51,461 nt of DNA from an uncultured Oscillospiraceae bacterium (GTDB taxonomy: Bacteria; Bacillota; Clostridia; Oscillospirales; Oscillospiraceae): positions 1 to 51,461 of the forward strand of contig CANRHH010000017.1 of the NCBI GenBank assembly GCA_947630375.1. The letters are read 5' to 3'. Numbering within the stretch: position 1 is the first letter of the stretch; each line of letters starts with the position of its first letter. Below are positions 12,635-22,226 of this stretch, piece after piece. The position numbers and the translations under genes were made by a program. Under the pieces are notes generated by a model that had not been told where the DNA came from, did no database searches, and was given only the letters and a program-made list of their open reading frames with translations.

Positions 12635-14845
12635 TCAGCTGTGTTCCGCCCGGTACACCCGGAGTCGGGAGGCGATATCCGCCGCGGCCTGGTCCAACGG
12701 CTTGTCCCCGGCGAAAAAGCTCCGGGCCAGGCTGTTTACCGCCGTATAGAGCTCATCCGGGCCCCGCTGCACACCCTCCGCCCCGTCTAAAAGCTGCCGG
12801 AAAAGAGCGTCGCAGTTGGCCGGATCGTAGCTCAGGCTATAGTCCGCCCCGTCGGCCGAGCCGGAGATCACGCCGTTTAATTTCTCCCAAGCCCTGGCCC
12901 CCTGCTCATAGGCGGAGCGGGTCAGGGGGATCCCGTGGCGAAAGCCCATGCCGTAGCTCATATCCGTCAGATACCGGTCCTGGAGCGCGAAGCGGAGAAA
13001 GGCCCAGGCCCCGTCCTTGTTTACGGCCTTCAAAGGCATCATCATCTCCTGGGCGGGGCAGAGGGCAAAGCCGCTCCGGCCCGGCAGAGGCAGGGCCGTG
13101 AGCTTCTGCCCAAAGACGCCCTCCTCGTAGCCCAAGCCCACGGCGGTATAGTCTTCGCCGTTGCTCTGGGGGATGACCGGCCCTGAGACCACGGCCAGCT
13201 CAAAGCACTGCAGCCCAGCCAGGATGGGACGGTGATCCAGCTCGAAAAATATGCCCTCTTCCGCCATCTGCTCCAGCTCCTCCTGGGGCAGGTCATAGGG
13301 ATTTTGCAGGGCCTGTTCCGGCAGCGCGGCGGCAAAGGCCAGGATGTCCGCCACCTGCTCCTCTGTGTAGTCCCGCTGTCCGCCGGCAAAGACGGCCTTC
13401 AGGAGATCTTCTCTGGATACGCTGCTGTAAAACACCTGCTCCGCGCTCCCGGCCAGGGCGGAAAGGGCGGCCCAGCTGCCGGTGTCCTGCCCATTTACCA
13501 AGGCGGCGGGGGCCAGCAGCGCCTGGACGGTGAAGCTGGGCATCAGGCTGAAGAGCTTCCCGTCTGTCTCCATGGCTTTCAGCGGCCCGGGCAGGAGGGC
13601 GTCTTTATCATAGTCCCGCTCCACATAGGGCAGCAGATCCTCGGCATTGGCAGCTGTGGCCAGGCCGGAGGAAAAGCCCTCCAAGTCGATCAGATCCGGC
13701 ACGTCTCCGGCGGCGATATCCGCGTTCAGGGCTGTCTGGGGATCCGGGCAGTCCGCATAATTTTTCACCACCACTTCATAGTCCCGGCTGACGGTGTTGA
13801 AGTCCGCGATGGCCTCCCAAAAGGAGGAGGGATAGGGCCGGTTGAAGTTGGCCGCCTCCGGGTCATTGCAGGCCAGGGTCACTGTCTGCCGGGCGGCGGG
13901 GAGGGTGCTTTTGTCCACCGGCCGGGCGATCTTATAGGGGCTGACCTCGTTGGTGAACTCATGGAACAAAAAGCAGCCGCTGTCCCCTATGGGGATGGGC
14001 GCCAGCCCCGGCGTCAGGTACAGGGCGTCGTAGCGAAACAGGGCCTCCCGCTCCGCTCCGCCCACAGGCCGCCGGTAGACGCAGGTCCCGTCGTTGCTGA
14101 AGAGCAGGCCGCCGGAAATGCCGTTCAGGCTCTCGTCCTCTTTCAGGCTGTCCACCTTGTTGAGGGAGAAGTTCTGCCCGTCCAGCCGGAAGAACTCATA
14201 GCTCTCCCGGCCGAAGAAATAGAGCTCCCTGCCGTCCCGGTAGAGCTGGAACCACTCGCTCAGGTCCTGCTCATGCAGCAGCTGACCGGCAGGATCGTAG
14301 GCCGCCAAGGAGTAGTGCCCTGTGTTGCTCTCGTCCCACCACTGTCTGGTGATCAGCAGAAAGCCGTCTCCCACTGTCAGCTCCGCCGTGCCCTGTTCGG
14401 TGGTGAAACGCAAGACCGGCTCCGCCTCCCCCTGCCGGTAGACGGCATAGTCTGTGTGCCGGTCGTTGTGGTCCTCGGTGTACTCCAGCCGCCAGGCGGA
14501 GCCGTCCGGCCCGATCCACTCGGGCCGGGTATCCCCCAGCTCCCGCAGGCAGCGGCCATCAGCGTCAAACTCCCGGAGCGTGCCGTCCTGGTCCAGAGGG
14601 TCCAGCACATAGACGCCGCCGGGAGAGGGCAGCACCTGAGCGGCGGGGCTCACCGGCCGGTCAAAGCTGAAGATGTCCGCCGCGTAGACCGTCCCGATGG
14701 AAGCGGCCTGGCTGGCCGGGACAGTCTGTCCGCCGCTATCCTCCGGCGTTTTTTTCTGAAAAATGGGCATGCAGCCGCCCAGGGTCAGGCACAGCGCCAG
14801 AAAAAGCGTCGGCAGGCCCCTGAAAAACCGTATCGATTTGTTCAT
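12635..14845 (-). CDS. Large extracellular solute-binding lipoprotein 1, in ECF operon
   Basis: Surface lipoprotein with a family 1 solute-binding fold, ligand unknown. The 736-residue protein has a signal ending in lipobox LTLGGC. An N-terminal half of about 300 residues follows with repeated aromatic/acidic strands suggestive of a beta-propeller (inference). The C-terminal binding-protein half contains DFNTVSRDYEVVVKNYA, ALNADIAAGDVPDLIDLEG, WAFLRFAL and a closing helical segment QAAADIASRLRVYRAE. Two paralogues with the same layout lie at 20061 and 48889. No ABC permease or ATPase is adjacent. It is the last gene of the sigma/anti-sigma operon, 18 bases after the anti-sigma gene, so expression is probably tied to that sigma factor. 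Confidence 0.85.
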   Translation of the reverse strand: MNKSIRFFRGLPTLFLALCLTLGGCMPIFQKKTPEDSGGQTVPASQAASIGTVYAADIFSFDRPVSPAAQVLPSPGGVYVLDPLDQDGTLREFDADGRCLRELGDTRPEWIGPDGSAWRLEYTEDHNDRHTDYAVYRQGEAEPVLRFTTEQGTAELTVGDGFLLITRQWWDESNTGHYSLAAYDPAGQLLHEQDLSEWFQLYRDGRELYFFGRESYEFFRLDGQNFSLNKVDSLKEDESLNGISGGLLFSNDGTCVYRRPVGGAEREALFRYDALYLTPGLAPIPIGDSGCFLFHEFTNEVSPYKIARPVDKSTLPAARQTVTLACNDPEAANFNRPYPSSFWEAIADFNTVSRDYEVVVKNYADCPDPQTALNADIAAGDVPDLIDLEGFSSGLATAANAEDLLPYVERDYDKDALLPGPLKAMETDGKLFSLMPSFTVQALLAPAALVNGQDTGSWAALSALAGSAEQVFYSSVSREDLLKAVFAGGQRDYTEEQVADILAFAAALPEQALQNPYDLPQEELEQMAEEGIFFELDHRPILAGLQCFELAVVSGPVIPQSNGEDYTAVGLGYEEGVFGQKLTALPLPGRSGFALCPAQEMMMPLKAVNKDGAWAFLRFALQDRYLTDMSYGMGFRHGIPLTRSAYEQGARAWEKLNGVISGSADGADYSLSYDPANCDALFRQLLDGAEGVQRGPDELYTAVNSLARSFFAGDKPLDQAAADIASRLRVYRAEHS

Positions 14846-14863: not shown

Positions 14864-16483
14864 TCAATCCAAAAGCGAAAAGTCCAGCATGTTCGCCGTG
14901 GCCTCGATTTCATAGGCCGTGTTGTACCAGGCAGGGCGGCCGATCACCCAGGCGTTCTCCCCCTCATAGAGGATCATCGCGCCCCGGTCCGGCCCGTGAG
15001 GATTCGCCAGATTGGCCCGGATGGTCACCACCGCGCCTGTCTCCGTCCGGTAAAACCAGCTCTCCCAGCCGTCCTCCCCGGGCAGGGGACCCAGGTCGAT
15101 GCACAGGGCCCCTTTGGGGATGATCTGCCAGAGGGAGCTGTCCAGGACTCCGTTGTCAAAGAACAGGTCCATGGGGGAGAGCTGCTCCAGCAGGGCCCGG
15201 CGGTAGCCCCGGTGCTCTAACTCGTCTAGGGTCACCACCCGGCCCGGCCACTCGGCGGGGGCCTCCTCCTTTTCGGACAGCACCAGGGCACCGAAGCGGC
15301 TGGGGGCCGTCAGGCCGTATGCCTCCGAGAGCTGCCCCATCTTTTCCAGCAGCGCCTCTTGGGGTGCCGCCCAGGGGTTATATTCCTGGTACGCCGCCTC
15401 GCCCAACTGCCCGGCGGCAAAGGCCGCGTATTCCGCCGCGGCCTTCCCCTCCGGAGAGGCCAGAAAGTCCTCCCACACGGCCGCGCTGCCTGGGTTCTTG
15501 CAGACTGTGGGGCCGTGGGAGAGCCAGGCCACGTCCGCCTCATGGGGCAGCGCCTCGTGGAACAGGAACAGATCCGCCAGCCGCTCCATGGTCTCCGGGC
15601 TGTCTCTGCCCTCCCAGGGGCCGCCGGTCACGTTCATGTACACGCCGTCCCGGTCAAAGAAGATCTCCCCGGCCTGCTCCTGCTCGTTGAAGCAGATGAG
15701 CACCGTATCCCCCCAGACGTTGGTGTACTCCCATTCGGTATAGGCCTCCGGATCAAAAGCAATGCCGGCGTAGGGCATGACCGTCCCCGCCAGGTGCCGG
15801 TGGAAGGTAAAGCCGTAGTCGGGTCCGCCGTCCTCTGAGGAAGCTTCTCCCTCCATTTTAAAGGAGCCGTCCTCGTAGATATAGCCGTTGCCGGTGAGGC
15901 CGGGGGCCAGGAAAGCCCCGGTGCCCGCGCCCCGGTAGAAATCTTCCAGCGTGACCGGCGTCAGGCGCAGAGTGTGGAGCTCCAGGCCATAGCGCCCGGC
16001 GATCTCATAGAGCTTGTCCGCCATGGCCTGGTCGCAGCAGCCGTAGTAGTGGCAGGTCTCCACAAAGTCGGCGCTCTGGCCGTCCAGAAAGCCAGAGTCG
16101 AAGTCGATCTCCGTGCTCGCCATATACTCGTCATAGAAGGCGGTCCACTCGGCGTTGGCCAGGTACTCCGGGGAATCCCGATAGCCGTTGAGGGACAGAT
16201 AGACCCTCTTTTTCTCCGGCTGGGAGGCAGTCTGGGCGGACTGGGGGCGCGGCCTCTCAAAGCTCCGCTCCCGGAGGCCGAACCAGCCCAAGGCGTAGGC
16301 GGTGACCGTCAGCAGGGAGAGGAGCACCGCCGCCAGCAGCCCATAGCTCACCAGCCGCCGGACGCTGTGCCGCCGGGGCGCGGCCGCTTCCGCCGCCCCA
16401 TACCCCAGGAAATCCCCGGCCAGAAGCAGCTGTTCGGGCCGGATGCCCTCCATGGCCTCCAATAAAAGCATCTCGTTTACCAT
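14864..16483 (-). CDS. Membrane-anchored anti-sigma-like protein
   Basis: Probable anti-sigma factor for the ECF sigma encoded immediately upstream. The 539-residue protein has a short cytoplasmic N-terminus (residues 1-40, including EAMEGIRPEQLLLAG), one membrane segment (LVSYGLLAAVLLSLLTVTAYAL, about 46-67) and a large extracellular part with SPEYLANAEWTAFYDEY and several Tyr/Trp-rich stretches. No zinc-finger (ZAS) motif is visible, so the assignment rests on topology and context. It overlaps the sigma gene by 7 bases (ATGGTAA), indicating translational coupling. The large outer domain could be the sensor. Confidence is high for the operon and moderate for the role. Confidence 0.72.
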   Translation of the reverse strand: MVNEMLLLEAMEGIRPEQLLLAGDFLGYGAAEAAAPRRHSVRRLVSYGLLAAVLLSLLTVTAYALGWFGLRERSFERPRPQSAQTASQPEKKRVYLSLNGYRDSPEYLANAEWTAFYDEYMASTEIDFDSGFLDGQSADFVETCHYYGCCDQAMADKLYEIAGRYGLELHTLRLTPVTLEDFYRGAGTGAFLAPGLTGNGYIYEDGSFKMEGEASSEDGGPDYGFTFHRHLAGTVMPYAGIAFDPEAYTEWEYTNVWGDTVLICFNEQEQAGEIFFDRDGVYMNVTGGPWEGRDSPETMERLADLFLFHEALPHEADVAWLSHGPTVCKNPGSAAVWEDFLASPEGKAAAEYAAFAAGQLGEAAYQEYNPWAAPQEALLEKMGQLSEAYGLTAPSRFGALVLSEKEEAPAEWPGRVVTLDELEHRGYRRALLEQLSPMDLFFDNGVLDSSLWQIIPKGALCIDLGPLPGEDGWESWFYRTETGAVVTIRANLANPHGPDRGAMILYEGENAWVIGRPAWYNTAYEIEATANMLDFSLLD

Positions 16484-17034
16484 AGCCCTTCCTCCTGCAG
16501 CCTGTCGCGCAGCCGTCCACGGAGGCGGAACAGGGCGCTTTTGGTCCTGCTTCGGCTCCAGCCCAACCGGCGGGAGATCTCCTCGATGGAGGCCAAGTAC
16601 CAGTACCGGGAGACAAAAAGCTTCTGCTCCGTCTCGTTCAAGGAGGCGGCAAAGTCCCCGATGGCCCGCTTCAGCTCCTCCAATTCACAGTGCCGGGCCG
16701 GGTCGGTCCCGCCGGGGAGGCAGTCGCTCAGCTCCTCTAAAGCCAGAGGGACCTGGCCGCCGCCCCGCTTCTGCCGCTGGTAAGTTTTCACCTTGTCCAG
16801 GGCAAAGTGCCGGGTGATCCCTCCCAAAAAGGGCGGCAGGACGGCCGGACGCTTGTCCGGCATTAAGTTCCAGGCCCGAAACCAGGTGTCATTGACGCAC
16901 TCCTCCGCGTCCTCCGGGCTGGCGCAGATGTTGCGGGCAATGGCCTGGCAATACCGGCCGTATTTCCGGTCTGTCTCCGGAATGGCCCGGTCGGACCGCT
17001 GCCAATACAGCTCCACAATGGCGGAATCTTCCAT
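16477..17034 (-). CDS. ECF-type RNA polymerase sigma factor
   Basis: Alternative sigma-70 factor directing RNA polymerase to stress or envelope genes. The 185-residue protein has region 2 (YGRYCQAIARNICASPEDAEECVNDTWFRAWN), a linker and region 4 (LNETEQKLFVSRYWYLASIEEISRRLGWSRSRTKSALFRLRGRL) with a helix-turn-helix; there is no region 1 or 3, as in ECF factors. ATG 17034 has AGAGGAGG-like bases upstream (GAGGAGGTGCCCT) and gives the normal family length; the longer frame is rejected because it crosses the promoter. It heads an operon with the anti-sigma-like gene and a solute-binding lipoprotein and is probably autoregulated. Confidence 0.93.
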   Translation of the reverse strand: MEDSAIVELYWQRSDRAIPETDRKYGRYCQAIARNICASPEDAEECVNDTWFRAWNLMPDKRPAVLPPFLGGITRHFALDKVKTYQRQKRGGGQVPLALEELSDCLPGGTDPARHCELEELKRAIGDFAASLNETEQKLFVSRYWYLASIEEISRRLGWSRSRTKSALFRLRGRLRDRLQEEGLW

Positions 17035-17073
17035 AGGGCACCTCCTCTGCTGTTTGAGCGCTCTCATCCTACT

Positions 17074-17099
17074 ATACGACAAAACCGGGGACAGGTTGC
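17074..17099 (-). promoter_or_regulatory. ECF-type promoter of the sigma operon
   Basis: Minus-strand AACCT (17099-17095) followed by GTCCCCGGTTTTGT and CGTATAG (17080-17074). AACCT-like -35 and CGT-type -10 elements are the usual ECF signature, and no TTGACA/TATAAT pair is present. I infer recognition by the sigma factor it drives. Confidence 0.6.
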
Positions 17100-17157
17100 G
17101 AAAAAAAGAAAAATTTTTTCGCTTTCCCGGCCCGGACCTGCAAAAGTTGAGAAGAAA

Positions 17158-17179
17158 TTTGTGGGAAATTTGTGGGAAA
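17158..17179. repeat. Two tandem copies of TTTGTGGGAAA
   Basis: The 11-base unit TTTGTGGGAAA occurs at 17158-17168 and again at 17169-17179, exactly one helical turn apart. It lies between the divergent sigma and P-type ATPase-like genes, 12 bases upstream of the latter's -35 box, where an activator could bind. Confidence 0.6.
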
Positions 17180-17191
17180 CACAAGATATGG

Positions 17192-17220
17192 TTGACAAAA
17201 ACTTGAAAATGTGAAATGAT
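17192..17220 (+). promoter_or_regulatory. Probable promoter of the P-type ATPase-like gene
   Basis: TTGACA (17192-17197), 17-base spacer, AATGAT (17215-17220); GATAAT at 17218-17223 is an alternative -10 with longer spacing. Confidence 0.5.
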
Positions 17221-17277: not shown

Positions 17278-19266
17278 ATGTCAAAACATCTTCCCCCGCC
17301 TAAAAATAAACATGTGAAGCAGGCGCAGCCCGCCCTGAAAACGGTGGCCGAGGCGGCGGACGCGGCGGAGCGCGTCAAATCCGTGCGGAAAATGCCGGAG
17401 ACCGCGTTCTCTCTGCGTTCCGCGCTGCCGGTCATGGCGGCGCTGGTCGTATATGTCCTGGCCCTGGCCCTCAAGGCGGAGGGATTGAAGCGGCTGATCT
17501 CCTTCCTGCTCCCGGCGCTGATCGCCGGGGCGCCGGTCCTGTTCCGGACGGTGCTGGGCGCCTTGAAAAAAGAGTTTGCCGAGGGGAATCTGCTGCTCCT
17601 TACAGCGGCCGCTGCGGCCTTCTGCCTGGGGGAGTACGCCACGGCGGCCGCCGCGGTGGTCCTGTACCGGGTGGTGGAGCTGCTGGAGGCATTTCTGCTC
17701 TCCAGGCGGGAAAAGACCCTGCGCCGGCTCCGGGAGGCCCTGCCGAAGCGGGCCGGGGTGGAGACCCCGGAGGGAGTCAGCCAGGTGTCTCCCCAGGAGC
17801 TGACCGTGGGGGAGACCGTGGTGGTCATGCCCGGGGAGGCTGTCCCGGCGGACGGGATCGTGGTGGAGGGCATGAGCTCTCTGGACCCCACGCTGCTGAC
17901 CGGGAACGGCGCGCCTCTGACCGTGGCCCCGGGGAGCCGGGTCTTGTCCGGGTGCGTGAATCTGACCAATATGCTCCGGGTGCAGGTGCAGCGCGGCGCC
18001 GAGGAGTCGGCCGCCCAGCGGCTGATCGAGATGGTGGAGATCTCCAACACCAACCGCAGCGGCCGGGAGAAATTCATGGCCCGCTTTACCGCCGTTTTCC
18101 CGCCGGTCGCGGCCGCCGCCGGGCTGCTGATCGCGCTGCTCCCGCCGCTGTTTCAGGGCGGGGGCTGGCTGGACTGGCTTCGCCGGGCCGTGGCGGTCTG
18201 GCTGCTGGCCTCTCCCTGCGGCCTGCTGGCCTCTGTGCCGGAGACCTATTTCGGCGGCATTGCCAGCGCGGCGCGCTTAGGCGTGTTCCTGAAAGGGACC
18301 CGGTTCCTGGAGACCCTGGCCAAAGCCCGGACGATGATCTTTGAAAAGACCGGCGTCATCACCGAAAAAAGCTATCATATCCTGGAGGCTGTGCCCGCCA
18401 ACGGGGACGCCCAGGTCCTGCTGCGCACGGCGGCCCTGGCCGAGTCTCATTCCGACCATCCCATTGCCCAGGCTCTGCGGGCGGCCAGCGGCATGCAGGA
18501 AGAAGAGAGCATACAGGTGGACGAGCTGCCGTGCCGGGGGGTCAGCGCCTTTACGGAGGGGAAACACGTCTATGTGGGCAACGCCGGCCTGATGGCCGAG
18601 CATAATATCTCCTGCGCCGTGCCCCGCCGGAAGGGAGTTGCCATCCATGTGGCGGCGGACAACCGGTATTTGGGCTATCTTGTTCTGGAGAACAAGGTGC
18701 GGGACGGCGCTTTTGACGCGCTGGAGTCTATGCGCCGCTGGGGCGTGAAGAACCTGGTGATGCTGACAGGGGATCTGCACTCGGTCGCCCGGCAGATCGC
18801 CTCCTCCCTGAGCTTTGACATGGTCAAGACGGAGCTCAGCCCCGCCGGAAAGATGGCGGCGGTGGAGTATCTGATGGCCGCGAAAGGGGATAACGCCACC
18901 TTAGTCTATGTTGGCAGCGGCAGAAACGACGCGGAGCTCTTTGAACGGGCGGACGCGGGCGTCGTGCTGGACGCGCTGGATACGCCTCAGGCCCTGGACG
19001 GCGCGGATGTGATCGTCATGGGCGAGGATATCCGGACTGCGGCGGAGCTGATGCGGATCGCCAAGCAGTCGGATCTGACCGCCCGGCTCAGCATTTTGGT
19101 CTCTTTTTGCGCGCGCTTAGGCGGCATCGCGCTGGCGCCCTTCGGCCTGGTCCCCCTGTGGGGGGCTGTGGCCCTGTCGGCAGGCGCGGCGCTGTTCTCC
19201 GGCGTAAACGCCCTGCGGGCCCAGGGCGGGTTCCGGGCCGGACGGGAGGACGGAAGCAGACTGTGA
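17278..19266 (+). CDS. P1B-type ATPase homologue with altered catalytic residues
   Basis: The 662-residue protein has the full fold of heavy-metal P-type ATPases: N-terminal membrane segments, actuator domain (MPGEAVPADGIVVEG), the SPCGLL metal segment with C314, P and N domains (SHSDHPIAQAL), hinge and two C-terminal segments. Yet key residues differ. The phosphorylated Asp of DKTG is Glu356 (FEKTGVIT), the TGE loop reads TGN (N210), and GDGxND reads GSGRND (S547). The last membrane segment has WGAVALSAG where metal ATPases have an Asp. TGD (497-499) and HP are kept. It should not form the aspartyl phosphate, so a transport cycle is unlikely. The frame is intact throughout, arguing for a retained non-catalytic role. 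The stop overlaps the HAD gene start by 4 bases. Confidence 0.88.
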   Translation: MSKHLPPPKNKHVKQAQPALKTVAEAADAAERVKSVRKMPETAFSLRSALPVMAALVVYVLALALKAEGLKRLISFLLPALIAGAPVLFRTVLGALKKEFAEGNLLLLTAAAAAFCLGEYATAAAAVVLYRVVELLEAFLLSRREKTLRRLREALPKRAGVETPEGVSQVSPQELTVGETVVVMPGEAVPADGIVVEGMSSLDPTLLTGNGAPLTVAPGSRVLSGCVNLTNMLRVQVQRGAEESAAQRLIEMVEISNTNRSGREKFMARFTAVFPPVAAAAGLLIALLPPLFQGGGWLDWLRRAVAVWLLASPCGLLASVPETYFGGIASAARLGVFLKGTRFLETLAKARTMIFEKTGVITEKSYHILEAVPANGDAQVLLRTAALAESHSDHPIAQALRAASGMQEEESIQVDELPCRGVSAFTEGKHVYVGNAGLMAEHNISCAVPRRKGVAIHVAADNRYLGYLVLENKVRDGAFDALESMRRWGVKNLVMLTGDLHSVARQIASSLSFDMVKTELSPAGKMAAVEYLMAAKGDNATLVYVGSGRNDAELFERADAGVVLDALDTPQALDGADVIVMGEDIRTAAELMRIAKQSDLTARLSILVSFCARLGGIALAPFGLVPLWGAVALSAGAALFSGVNALRAQGGFRAGREDGSRL

Positions 19267-19829
19267 ACGCGTATGATTTTGACCAGACCGTTTTTTTCCC
19301 GGACAGCTCCTACTGCTTTGTGATGTATTGTCTGAAGCACCATACCCGGGCGGTGCTGCGGGCGATGCCCGGGGCGGCGCTGGCGGGCATAAAAGTGCTG
19401 CGCAAGAGGGTAGAGGTCAAGGAACTCAAGGAGAAGACCTTCGCCTTTCTGCGGGAGCTGCCGGATGTGGATGAGGCGGTCCGGGCCTTTTGGGAGGAGC
19501 ACCGGGAAAATTTGGCCTCCTGGTATCTGGAGCAAAAGCGGCCGGATGATCTGATCATTTCCGCCTCGCCGGAGTTCCTGCTGCGGCCCATCGCCGAAGA
19601 GCTGGGCGTGCGTCTGCTGGCCACCCGGATGGATAAGCGCACGGGCCGCATTACCGGCGCCAACTGCCACGATGAGGAAAAAGTCCGCCGGTTTCGGGAG
19701 GCATACCCGGAGGAGCGGGTGGAGGCCTTTTATTCCGATTCTCTGTCGGATAGCCCCATGGCCCGCCTGGCCGAAAGGGCTTATCTGGTGAAGAAAAACG
19801 GGATCGTCCCTTGGCCGGAACAGGACTGA
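19263..19829 (+). CDS. HAD-superfamily phosphatase (subclass IB)
   Basis: Aspartate-nucleophile phosphatase related to phosphoserine phosphatase and other HAD-IB enzymes; the substrate is not readable. The 188-residue protein starts at GTG 19263 and has motif I DFDQT (nucleophile D5, acid D7) at its very N-terminus, a helical cap, motif II IISASPEF, a lysine in RMDKRTGRITG, and motif IV YSDSLSDSPML-like (YSDSLSDSPMA). All catalytic residues are present, in contrast to the preceding ATPase homologue. The start overlaps the ATPase stop (GTGA), so the two are translationally coupled and probably work together. A strong terminator follows. Confidence 0.88.
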   Translation: MNAYDFDQTVFFPDSSYCFVMYCLKHHTRAVLRAMPGAALAGIKVLRKRVEVKELKEKTFAFLRELPDVDEAVRAFWEEHRENLASWYLEQKRPDDLIISASPEFLLRPIAEELGVRLLATRMDKRTGRITGANCHDEEKVRRFREAYPEERVEAFYSDSLSDSPMARLAERAYLVKKNGIVPWPEQD

Positions 19830-19852
19830 AAAGCAAAATATCCAATATAATA

Positions 19853-19894
19853 ACACCGTGGAAACCGCAAAAGACGGCTTCCACGGTGTTTTTT
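19853..19894 (+). terminator. Terminator after the HAD gene
   Basis: Stem ACACCGTGGAA / TTCCACGGTGT with a 15-base loop, followed by TTTTT. Confidence 0.85.
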
Positions 19895-19925: not shown

Positions 19926-20060
19926 CCGCGGTGTATACCGCGGCGCGTTTTCGGGGTCTTATAACAGTGAGAGCTCCTCCGCGCGGAAAACGCGTAGGGG
20001 GAGCAGCGCATCCCCTGTAAGACGGATGCGAAAGAAAAACAGAAAAAAATGGAGGAGCCT
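19926..20060 (+). promoter_or_regulatory. Structured region upstream of lipoprotein 2
   Basis: Three inverted repeats occur in order: CCGCGGT / ACCGCGG at 19926-19943, GCTCC..CGCG / CGCG..GGAGC at 19973-20004, and GCATCC / GGATGC at 20008-20029. TTATAA at 19959-19964 could be part of a promoter, but I see no matching -35 box. The function is unknown; a structured leader or operator cluster is possible. Confidence 0.4.
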
Positions 20061-22226
20061 ATGAAGAAGATCACAGCGGTATTTTGTATGTTGTGCCTGG
20101 TCCTGTCTCTGACGGCCTGCGCCGGGAGAAAGGACAGGGGCGAAACCGGCCTGCCTGATTATACCGGCGGCCAGGTCGTGGGCAGCGACCTGCGCGGCAG
20201 CGGCGGGGCCCGGCTGTTTTCGGCCCAGCCGGTGGAGCTTCCGGACACCGGCGCCCAGGTCCGGCAGGCGGTGAAAGCGGGGGACGGCGTGTTCCTCTAT
20301 GCCAAAACCGGCGACCCGCTGTATATGGACCAGGGCGAGACCTGCTTTTATTTTCTTGGCGCGAACGGGACGGTGACGAAAGCGGAGATCCAGCCGGGCC
20401 GGGTGCTCGCCATAGACGGCGGCCCGGACGGGAGCGCCTATGTCCTGTTCACGGATAAAAACGGGACCCCTATTCTGGACCGCCTCACAGACGCGGGAGA
20501 TACGACCATCTTCCCGATGGGCTTCCTGGCGGACCGGGCGGAGGACATTTTGGGGCTGACGGTGACGGAGGAGGGCTATCTGGTGCAGACCGCCGGGAGC
20601 ATCCTGTGTTACGATCCGGACGGAGATCTGCAAGCGGAGCTGGGCCCCTTTACCGGGGCTTGCTGGCTGATCAAAAATCCCTCTGAGCTGGTGCTGGCCA
20701 TCGGGCAGGCGGAGGGCACGGAGTTTCAGGTGCTGGGGCCGGACTATGAAGGGACCGCCAGCTATAAGGTGCCGCAGCAGGTCAACGGCCTGTCTGCCGG
20801 GAGCCGGGACGGCCATGTGTTCTACGCGGACGCAGGCATCCTCTACGACCTGGACTTTACCACCGGAGAGCGGGCGGCCTACGCCAACGAGCAGGCCAGC
20901 GGCGGGACGGGCCGCTTCCTCTACCTGGCGGACGACCTGTATTTCGAAACTGCCGATGGTCAGGCTGCCCTCTATACCCTGGCCGGGGAGGAGGCCCGGG
21001 AGATCCGGGCCCTGAGCCTGGCGGTCTACGCGCCGGATGAAGCGGACGCCAGCGAGCTGCTGGACCGGGTGCGGCAGTTTAATTCCACAAGCCGGGCCTA
21101 TCGTATTGAGGTGGTCAACTATGGCGCGGAGGACGAAAAAGGCGGGGCCCAGACCGGGCTCCAGCGGCTCAATGCCGATATTATCTCCGGCAAGACCCCG
21201 GATATCTACGACCTTTCCTGCCTCAACGCCCTGTCCCTGATGGACAAGGGCCTGTTGGAGGACCTGCTGCCCTGGTTCGAGAGCTCCGAAGAGGTCCGCA
21301 TAGAGGATCTGACGGAAAGCGCGGTCCGGGCCCTGACGTATAAAGGGGCTCTGTACAGCCTGGTCCCGTCCTATTCCGTCGTGACCGTGTACGGCCCGTC
21401 TGCCCTGGCCAGCCCCGACACCTGGGGGCCGGACGCTTTTTTGGAGACGGCCAATTCCTCGGCCCAGTACATATTCGGCCCCTATGAGACAAAAGCGGCG
21501 TATCTCCGGCACCTGCTGACGCTCACGGGGGACACCTATGTGGATTTGGAAAACGCCCGCTGTGATTTCGTCAACTCCTCTTTCCCCGCCATGCTGGCTC
21601 TGGCGGCCAGGCTGCCCGACGATGACAGCGCCGGCTATGCGTCCGACGATTGGGGCCGGGTCTTCTGCGGCCAGCAGCTGTTTCTCCTGGTGGGCTCCGG
21701 GAACCTGATAGACGCCCTGTGCAGCGCCGGCACCGCTTACAGCGGCAACATGGCGGTTTTGGGCTTTCCCTCCGGGGGAAACGGCGTGAGCCTGGACCCG
21801 TTCCTCCATCTGGGCATGTCCTCCTCCAGCGCCTGCAAGGAGGGGGTATGGAGCTTCTTTGCGTATCTGCTCAGTGACAGCGTCCAAAACAACCTGGAAC
21901 GCAAAAATATCCTCCCCATCCGAAACGACGCCCTGGAGACCCTGCTGGACAAACAGTTGGACAGACAGGCAGAGATGGTCAGCCTGGCGGGCTTCGCGGA
22001 CAACCAACTATACAGTATTCCTTTCCCGGCGCTGACACCGGAGGTCAAGGACCGGGCGCTGGAGCTCATCGGCCGCATCGACTGTGTGAGTTTCTACAGT
22101 CCGGACCTGTATGACCTGGTCCTGCGGGAGGCGACGCCCTTTTTCCAGGGCGGGATCAGCGCCCGGCAGGCGGCGGAGAACATCCAGTCCAAAGTGAGCA
22201 TCTATCTTTCGGAGCAGTTCGGCTGA
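20061..22226 (+). CDS. Large extracellular solute-binding lipoprotein 2
   Basis: Paralogue of the lipoproteins at 12635 and 48889. The 721-residue protein has a signal peptide with lipobox LSLTAC, an N-terminal half of about 320 residues with repeating short strands such as DGSAYVLFTDKNGTP and EGYLVQTAGSILCYD (propeller-like, inference), and a C-terminal solute-binding half with VRQFNSTSRAYRIEVVNYG, RLNADIISGKTPDIYDLS, GVWSFFAYLL and the closing segment AAENIQSKVSIYLSEQ. ATG 20061 is chosen because GGAGG sits five bases upstream; ATG 20049 would place that site inside the gene. No transporter genes accompany it. The ligand is unknown; oligosaccharides are typical for family 1 proteins. Confidence 0.87.
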   Translation: MKKITAVFCMLCLVLSLTACAGRKDRGETGLPDYTGGQVVGSDLRGSGGARLFSAQPVELPDTGAQVRQAVKAGDGVFLYAKTGDPLYMDQGETCFYFLGANGTVTKAEIQPGRVLAIDGGPDGSAYVLFTDKNGTPILDRLTDAGDTTIFPMGFLADRAEDILGLTVTEEGYLVQTAGSILCYDPDGDLQAELGPFTGACWLIKNPSELVLAIGQAEGTEFQVLGPDYEGTASYKVPQQVNGLSAGSRDGHVFYADAGILYDLDFTTGERAAYANEQASGGTGRFLYLADDLYFETADGQAALYTLAGEEAREIRALSLAVYAPDEADASELLDRVRQFNSTSRAYRIEVVNYGAEDEKGGAQTGLQRLNADIISGKTPDIYDLSCLNALSLMDKGLLEDLLPWFESSEEVRIEDLTESAVRALTYKGALYSLVPSYSVVTVYGPSALASPDTWGPDAFLETANSSAQYIFGPYETKAAYLRHLLTLTGDTYVDLENARCDFVNSSFPAMLALAARLPDDDSAGYASDDWGRVFCGQQLFLLVGSGNLIDALCSAGTAYSGNMAVLGFPSGGNGVSLDPFLHLGMSSSSACKEGVWSFFAYLLSDSVQNNLERKNILPIRNDALETLLDKQLDRQAEMVSLAGFADNQLYSIPFPALTPEVKDRALELIGRIDCVSFYSPDLYDLVLREATPFFQGGISARQAAENIQSKVSIYLSEQFG

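Follow-up and report, generated by a model that had tools for sequence, protein, structure and literature searches.

Pump look-alikes under selection and an adjoining HAD-IB phosphatase gene in one genus of Oscillospiraceae

What is a heavy-metal pump kept for once the residues with which it would pump are gone? The question arises from a contig of 51,461 nucleotides of an uncultured Oscillospiraceae bacterium (assembly GCA_947630375.1, contig CANRHH010000017.1), the whole of which is called the window here. In P-type ATPases, a textbook family of catalysts, one Asp is invariant. The window encodes a homologue of the P1B heavy-metal ATPases with Glu at this position, and its gene overlaps that of a HAD-IB phosphatase. 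We report that most species of the genus hold pump look-alikes that are under strong selection and have lost residues of pumping, in some cases along with an entire domain. In the window, the pair reads as follows.

17278..19266, plus strand: degenerate homologue of P1B-type ATPases (hereafter the pseudo-pump), 662 amino acids, a single open frame without internal stop
17899..17907, plus strand: TGN instead of TGE in the actuator loop, residues 208-210 (LTGN at 207-210), read from the sequence
18211..18219, plus strand: SPC instead of CPC in the membrane metal site, residues 312-314, the first Cys of CPC being gone
18343..18345, plus strand: E356 instead of the phosphorylated Asp of DKTG (reads FEKTG)
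18913..18930, plus strand: GSGRND instead of GDGxND, residues 546-551
19177..19179, plus strand: S634 at the position of the membrane Asp (D714 of ZntA), by alignment to 4umv
19263..19829, plus strand: HAD-IB phosphatase gene, GTG start, catalytic residues intact, with a 4-base overlap with the ATPase stop (GTGA)

The pump-like protein of the window

By descent, the protein is a P1B ATPase. It scores above the NCBIfam cut-offs of the heavy-metal family TIGR01525 (368.7 bits, cut-off 346.25) and of the cadmium family TIGR01512 (342 bits, cut-off 313.5), and the closest solved structures by sequence are ZntA (4umv) and 7qbz. The marks of a P1B pump are absent: the Asp of DKTG is E356, the TGE loop is TGN, and the metal site made of CPC and the transmembrane Asp reads S312, C314, and S634. 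Direct reading and the alignment to 4umv agree with the initial annotation on E356, TGN, GSGRND, and the missing membrane Asp, and likewise its 2-kb frame free of stops and the 4-base overlap with an intact HAD-IB gene are as it described them. It had also stated that the whole layout of the family is kept. This is correct as far as the fold goes, yet CPC is also missing and, in the nucleotide site, Cys has replaced Gly419.

EKTG recurs in all five of the nearest proteins (56-64% identity), so close homologues do not all have normal motifs. Their actuator loops read TGK, SGE, or TGE, and they have GDG or GNG, TGN together with GSG being peculiar to the window. A lineage defined by EKTG, TGN, and GSG, which had been proposed as a check, does not exist: EKTG alone is common to these five, and across the clade the losses form a mosaic.

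Family, residues, and selection in the genus

Among 102 genomes of the window's genus, 94 have a match at 1e-80 when canonical pumps are counted in, and there are 91 degenerate homologues, one per genome. We call canonical the proteins that keep DKTG, TGE, CPC, and GDG; the 71 used for comparison are a selection including other genera (L002-L004 come from other groups). The table of residues and linkage for these 91 and 71 proteins leaves out L088-L091, L105, L010, L011, L013, L005-L007, L012, and L112, the duplicates L177, L219, L220, and L142-L170, and the loci with only a HAD (L113-L141). The degenerate homologues are set apart from the canonical ones by a branch with full support (100 in the Shimodaira-Hasegawa-like approximate likelihood ratio test, SH-aLRT) in each of three trees, which are quick ones with this support measure only. 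The first has 75 degenerate and 21 canonical proteins (without the duplicates L088-L091 and L105 and the CopA-like or partial L010, L011, and L013), the second 37 and 40 picked by the analyst, and the third, built without seven motif columns, 89 and 10 (out of the 71 canonical proteins). Frames shorter than 500 amino acids (L207 and L218 are fragments) were dropped from the last tree and from the analysis of selection. Since 91 of the 102 genomes have a degenerate homologue and these form one clade, the window protein is not a single decaying copy, a possibility also ruled out by the substitution rates below.

The catalytic and metal-site residues have been lost piecemeal. At position 356, 29 of 90 readable homologues retain Asp, and the others have G (25), S (14), N (11), E (9), T (1), or C (1), giving EKTG, GKTG, SKTG, and NKTG, next to DKTG with TGE lost; at least seven changes between Asp kept and lost are needed on the 89-protein tree. 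The Glu of TGE is kept in 8 of 80 readable homologues, the Asp of GDG in 62 of 91, and that of ND in 70 of 91. At the metal site, C312 is kept in 18 of 89, C314 in 7 of 89, and D634 in 32 of 91, and the three occur together in none of the 80 fully readable proteins. This makes a metal-binding pseudotransporter, as had been suggested, unlikely with the usual site. The nucleotide-contact and P-domain residues of P-type ATPases fare differently: K357, T358, and E389 are kept in 90 of 90, G421, D499, and K525 in 91 of 91, H394 in 83 of 90, and G419 in 83 of 91 (Cys in the window protein and seven others).

Nine loci (L203-L206, L208, L209, L211, L216, and L217) have gone further. Only 14-16 of the 107 positions of the actuator (A) domain remain, while the membrane, P, and N regions are nearly full and the HAD gene adjoins; one change on the tree suffices for all nine. 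The Pfam domain E1-E2_ATPase was not found in four of five such proteins tested, the fifth (L205) reaching 22 bits, under the cut-off of 28.1. Examples of these frames are L203:3153-4889 and L209:3194-4942. We know of no P-type cycle without an A domain, and the plainest evidence against pumping as the task of this family therefore comes from these nine.

Compared with P1B ATPases such as ZntA and CadA (4umv, 7qbz; TIGR01525, TIGR01512), the family is thus alike in fold by sequence, in length, in the order of A, P, and N domains in most members, and in most nucleotide-site residues. It is unlike them in the complete metal site, which is missing throughout the fully readable proteins, in the A domain, missing from nine, and, in the window, in the phosphorylated Asp, the Glu of TGE, CPC, and the membrane Asp.

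Selection was measured with the Nei-Gojobori method (NG86) as the ratio of nonsynonymous to synonymous substitution rates (dN/dS), on pairs with at least 74% identity and dS of 0.15-1.5; the domains were delimited approximately, from alignments. The 18 degenerate pairs lacking the Asp have a median dN/dS of 0.091 (0.040-0.249). Where the Asp is present, the median is 0.132 (0.074-0.252) over 12 degenerate pairs, and among 73 canonical pairs it is 0.220 (0.020-0.505). The membrane helices evolve more slowly than the head formed by the P and N domains in canonical pumps (median dN(TM)/dN(P+N) of 0.77), against 2.1 to 3.0 times faster in the degenerate classes (2.13 and 2.98), and column entropy agrees with this shift. 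The constraint has moved from the membrane helices to the nucleotide-binding head. Hence, the earlier proposal that the protein is kept for another purpose receives strong support from the single clade of 91, from the purifying selection, which had been named as a check, and from the actuator-less subclade. Apparent loss of catalysis under maintained selection would make the family one of pseudoenzymes.

Two alternatives bear directly on these data. The proteins might still be active P-type pumps with unusual residues or another cargo, as would fit the DKTG of 29 homologues, the invariance of D499 and K525, and L027, the single fully readable protein that keeps Asp, the Glu of TGE, and GDG, although it has lost CPC. 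We consider this improbable. Among the 80 fully readable proteins, 51 lack the Asp, 26 have it but lack the Glu of TGE, 2 have both but lack the Asp of GDG, and only L027 has all three; the actuator domain is gone in nine loci, and the membrane helices evolve faster than the head. PMC8880997 counts among the elements of the pump cycle the D714/K693 pair and, in central roles, the invariant Asp and the TGE loop.

The other alternative is a decaying relic whose frame stays open only through translational coupling to the HAD gene, in agreement with the 4-base overlap in the window and with the mosaic of losses. It is hardly credible in view of the dN/dS of 0.040-0.249 in pairs without the Asp, of the positions invariant across 91 genomes, and of a linkage that survives gaps of 493-562 bases in 23 loci.

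The phosphatase gene and the origin of the pair

Of the 91 degenerate genes, 89 are followed by a HAD gene on the same strand, as opposed to 2 of the 71 canonical ones, both from the genus g234 (for L100, L223, and L004, fewer than 600 bases are available after the gene); the first linkage count left out L002-L007. In 62 loci, -4 to +19 bases separate the two genes, and in the 23 loci mentioned 493-562, the other distances being 33 (L208), -66 as computed (L212), 174 (L078), and 285 bases (L072). In the 23, a gene of the nitroreductase family stands between (PF00881, confirmed on one, L016). The proposed two-protein unit is therefore strongly supported at the level of genes, save for this third gene, and the expectation that the HAD always follows holds except at L054 and L059, in whose genomes the HAD is directly behind obg (L214 and L215).

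Counted by genome, a HAD match is present in 93 of the 102 genomes of the genus, including all 34 that are complete and clean, and in 89 of the 93 the degenerate gene is upstream. The remaining four are the genomes of L054 and L059, plus G070 and G098, whose distant HADs (40% and 36%) group with those of other genera and whose fetched ATPases (L242 and L243) are canonical. Among the nine genomes without a HAD match, the best ATPase match was a canonical pump in the six inspected (L235-L240), and the other three (G007, G014, and G082) have no ATPase match at 1e-80.

The phosphatase itself is intact. Motifs I-IV of HAD-IB enzymes (DxDxT, S/T, K, and D..xD) are present in the window protein and in all 91 HADs of the linked loci (89 degenerate, two of g234), with catalytic residues unbroken; S100 is T in four of them, and the HAD of L212 keeps these residues and has lost part of the cap. 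As in known HAD-IB phosphatases, all four motifs are there and the TIGR01488 cut-off is exceeded, but unlike them the window HAD falls under the cut-off of TIGR01490 and far under those of the histidinol-phosphatase models and of the equivalog profile of PgpC (TIGR01545; 20.6 bits, cut-off 259.25). A sequence search of the PDB with the HAD gave no match at E 0.1. Coupling to an ATPase is not a general trait of this phosphatase: no ATPase frame was found within 1.5 kb upstream in 29 loci of other genera, which are part of 48 foreign HAD matches. At one locus of another genus, L136, an ATPase frame lies about 400 bases downstream of the HAD.

How the pair arose is suggested by g234, a genus of the same family. 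At L198 and L221, a fully canonical pump is followed by the HAD gene; L221:3537-6535 is an intact operon of ArsR, Zn/Cd-type ATPase, and HAD, with an overlapping ArsR-family gene (HTH_5) and a His-rich N-terminal tail. The pair is likely to be older than the death of the pump, because in the trees these two ATPases are the closest neighbors of the degenerate clade and their HADs are placed among those of the window's genus (in a weakly resolved tree in which one HAD of the genus, L084, is outside). The intact ATPase and HAD pair would then be the ancestral state. In a third g234 genome (L222), the canonical pump belongs to another branch and has no HAD.

Upstream, the neighbors vary. Within 2.6 kb of the 91 degenerate genes we found obg in 25, VanZ in 22, and ArsR in 8 loci, many loci reaching only 1.5 kb upstream. 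Genes of the obg and VanZ types (PF01018 and PF04892) precede the ATPase at L203, L204, L209, and L211. ArsR is upstream of 50 of the 71 canonical genes and at the same place in the eight degenerate loci (L016, L020, L027, L038, L039, L057, L062, and L066), where one or both Cys of its CVCD motif are lost (CVLD in six and RVLD in two, vs CVCD in L221 and L171). A loss of metal sensing by this neighbor is suggestive at most; the altered motif is no clear sign, since two of the four ArsRs compared from canonical loci (L009 and L103, of a longer type) lack CVCD too and have CVVN.

Around the pair in the window, two further features were recorded.

17192..17220, plus strand: promoter-like site TTGACA-17-AATGAT with TG ahead of the second hexamer, a consensus match only
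19852..19890, reported on the minus strand: 17-pair hairpin 3' of the HAD gene, terminator-like and near-palindromic, possibly the end of a two-gene unit

Between 17000 and 20100, on both strands, consensus matching gave two promoter-like sites against 0.6 expected in shuffles, and four terminator-like sites against 3.7, a number not above chance. A sigma-70 family factor (16477-17184, minus strand; Sigma70_r2/r4) diverges from the pair and is followed by a possible anti-sigma partner, a protein without Pfam match (14864-16483, minus strand). On opposite strands, the region is flanked by two lipoprotein-like proteins that have SBP_bac_8 solute-binding domains (12635-14845 and 20049-22226).

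Readings of the pair

The look-alikes are under selection, and in nearly every case an intact phosphatase gene follows closely. This suggests that a pump was turned into a membrane-bound partner of the HAD. In this account, a functional Zn/Cd-type P1B pump with a HAD-IB gene directly downstream would have abandoned pumping in one genus and been retained as a membrane protein, catalytically dead to judge by its residues. Its P/N head would still bind nucleotide, without turnover, and may dock on the phosphatase, holding or tuning it at the membrane in the manner of a pseudokinase-type regulator or scaffold. More speculatively, the HAD substrate could be a membrane phosphate such as phosphatidylglycerophosphate. 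That the pump became such a dead membrane partner seems to us about evenly poised between right and wrong, and a platform or regulator (sensor or scaffold) of the phosphatase is the best remaining reading of the pseudo-pump.

Known systems offer partial parallels. Pseudoenzymes such as pseudokinases retain nucleotide-site residues, lose catalytic ones, and have an active relative as partner. The pseudo-pump has the same pattern of residues, and its partner is a relative, the P domain itself having the HAD fold, but we found no example among P-type pumps, nor any precedent for a dead P-type ATPase family of this kind, in the open-access literature of PMC, a search with subscription papers mostly outside it. 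KdpB, in the multisubunit P-type ATPases, is itself an active catalyst, and the subunits that accompany it serve transport. The pair is similar to these in that a P-type polypeptide has a fixed partner gene, and different in that the partner is a phosphatase.

Several observations weigh against a membrane-bound partner of the HAD. The intervening nitroreductase gene in 23 of 91 loci means that contact between the two proteins need not be direct. Phosphorylation is still conceivable for some members, given the DKTG kept by 29 of 90 and the Asp, TGE Glu, and GDG all present in L027. The nucleotide site is not untouched, Gly419 being Cys in eight of 91 proteins, including that of the window, and His394 being lost in seven of 90. 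In favor of such a partner, residues common in the clade (at least 85% of 87 proteins) and rare in 69 canonical pumps are mainly at 475-531, in or beside the P domain. Eight are typical there (R475, F479, D480, E483, S502, S509, F513, and Y531), of which F479, D480, E483, S502, F513, and Y531 occur in 89-100% of the 87 and cluster in or beside this domain. Against it, none of the eight occurs in the intact pumps of g234 that are linked to a HAD, and L054 and L059 carry E483, S502, S509, F513, and Y531, yet have no adjoining HAD gene. A HAD-binding surface made of residues common to the clade and to the intact linked pumps was rejected, as most are not in common.

In a different account, the pseudo-pump works alone, as a ligand sensor, as a channel, or in lipid or metal handling, and has only the operon in common with the phosphatase. 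The nitroreductase gene that can intervene, the degenerate proteins of L054 and L059, and the HAD relatives elsewhere in the order with varied neighbors (the 29 loci) would all fit. We regard such separate tasks as possible but rather unlikely, given that the HAD remains downstream in 89 of 91 loci while upstream neighbors vary, and that a canonical pump was the best match in the HAD-less genomes inspected (six of nine).

A more specific version of the partnership starts from phosphatidylglycerol. YqeG, which we take to be the usual phosphatidylglycerophosphate phosphatase of Firmicutes, was matched (TIGR01668, 1e-15) in none of 55 genomes of the genus, vs 31 of 35 from other families of the order. 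The genus has no detectable YqeG, and so, speculatively, the HAD might make phosphatidylglycerol; it would have replaced YqeG, with the pseudo-pump as its membrane anchor. In keeping with this, PgsA is present and PgpA was not found in G000, the HAD is in 93 of 102 genomes and all the complete and clean ones, and 33 of 44 HADs match the PgpC model, weakly and far below its cut-off; PMC11629553 describes PgpC as a peripheral membrane protein. Against it, two histidinol-phosphatase models match all 44, also below cut-off, with best E-values that beat PgpC, and G000 has nine PF12710 matches, six of them over the cut-off, including the HAD of the pair and the canonical pump. The YqeG comparison was made with other families of the order. 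Furthermore, G130 and G132, without YqeG, are also not among the 43 genomes listed with a HAD match (a list in which genomes without a match mostly do not appear). We therefore judge the replacement of YqeG to be unlikely, and phosphatidylglycerol synthesis a lead only, with evidence against it. Slightly more doubtful still is the full scenario, in which the pump would have become a nucleotide-responsive regulator of a HAD performing an essential phosphatidylglycerophosphate step, shedding the metal site, the catalytic residues, and finally the actuator stepwise while keeping the nucleotide head and the partner.

Annotation names such homologues (P0027 and P0055, for example) cadmium or heavy-metal pumps, and inventories of transporters and resistance genes would thus be misled. 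A dead lineage of P-type ATPases selected across a genus, in which some members have no actuator domain, would demonstrate a use of the P/N head other than pumping, and the clade offers a natural deletion series on the role of this head.

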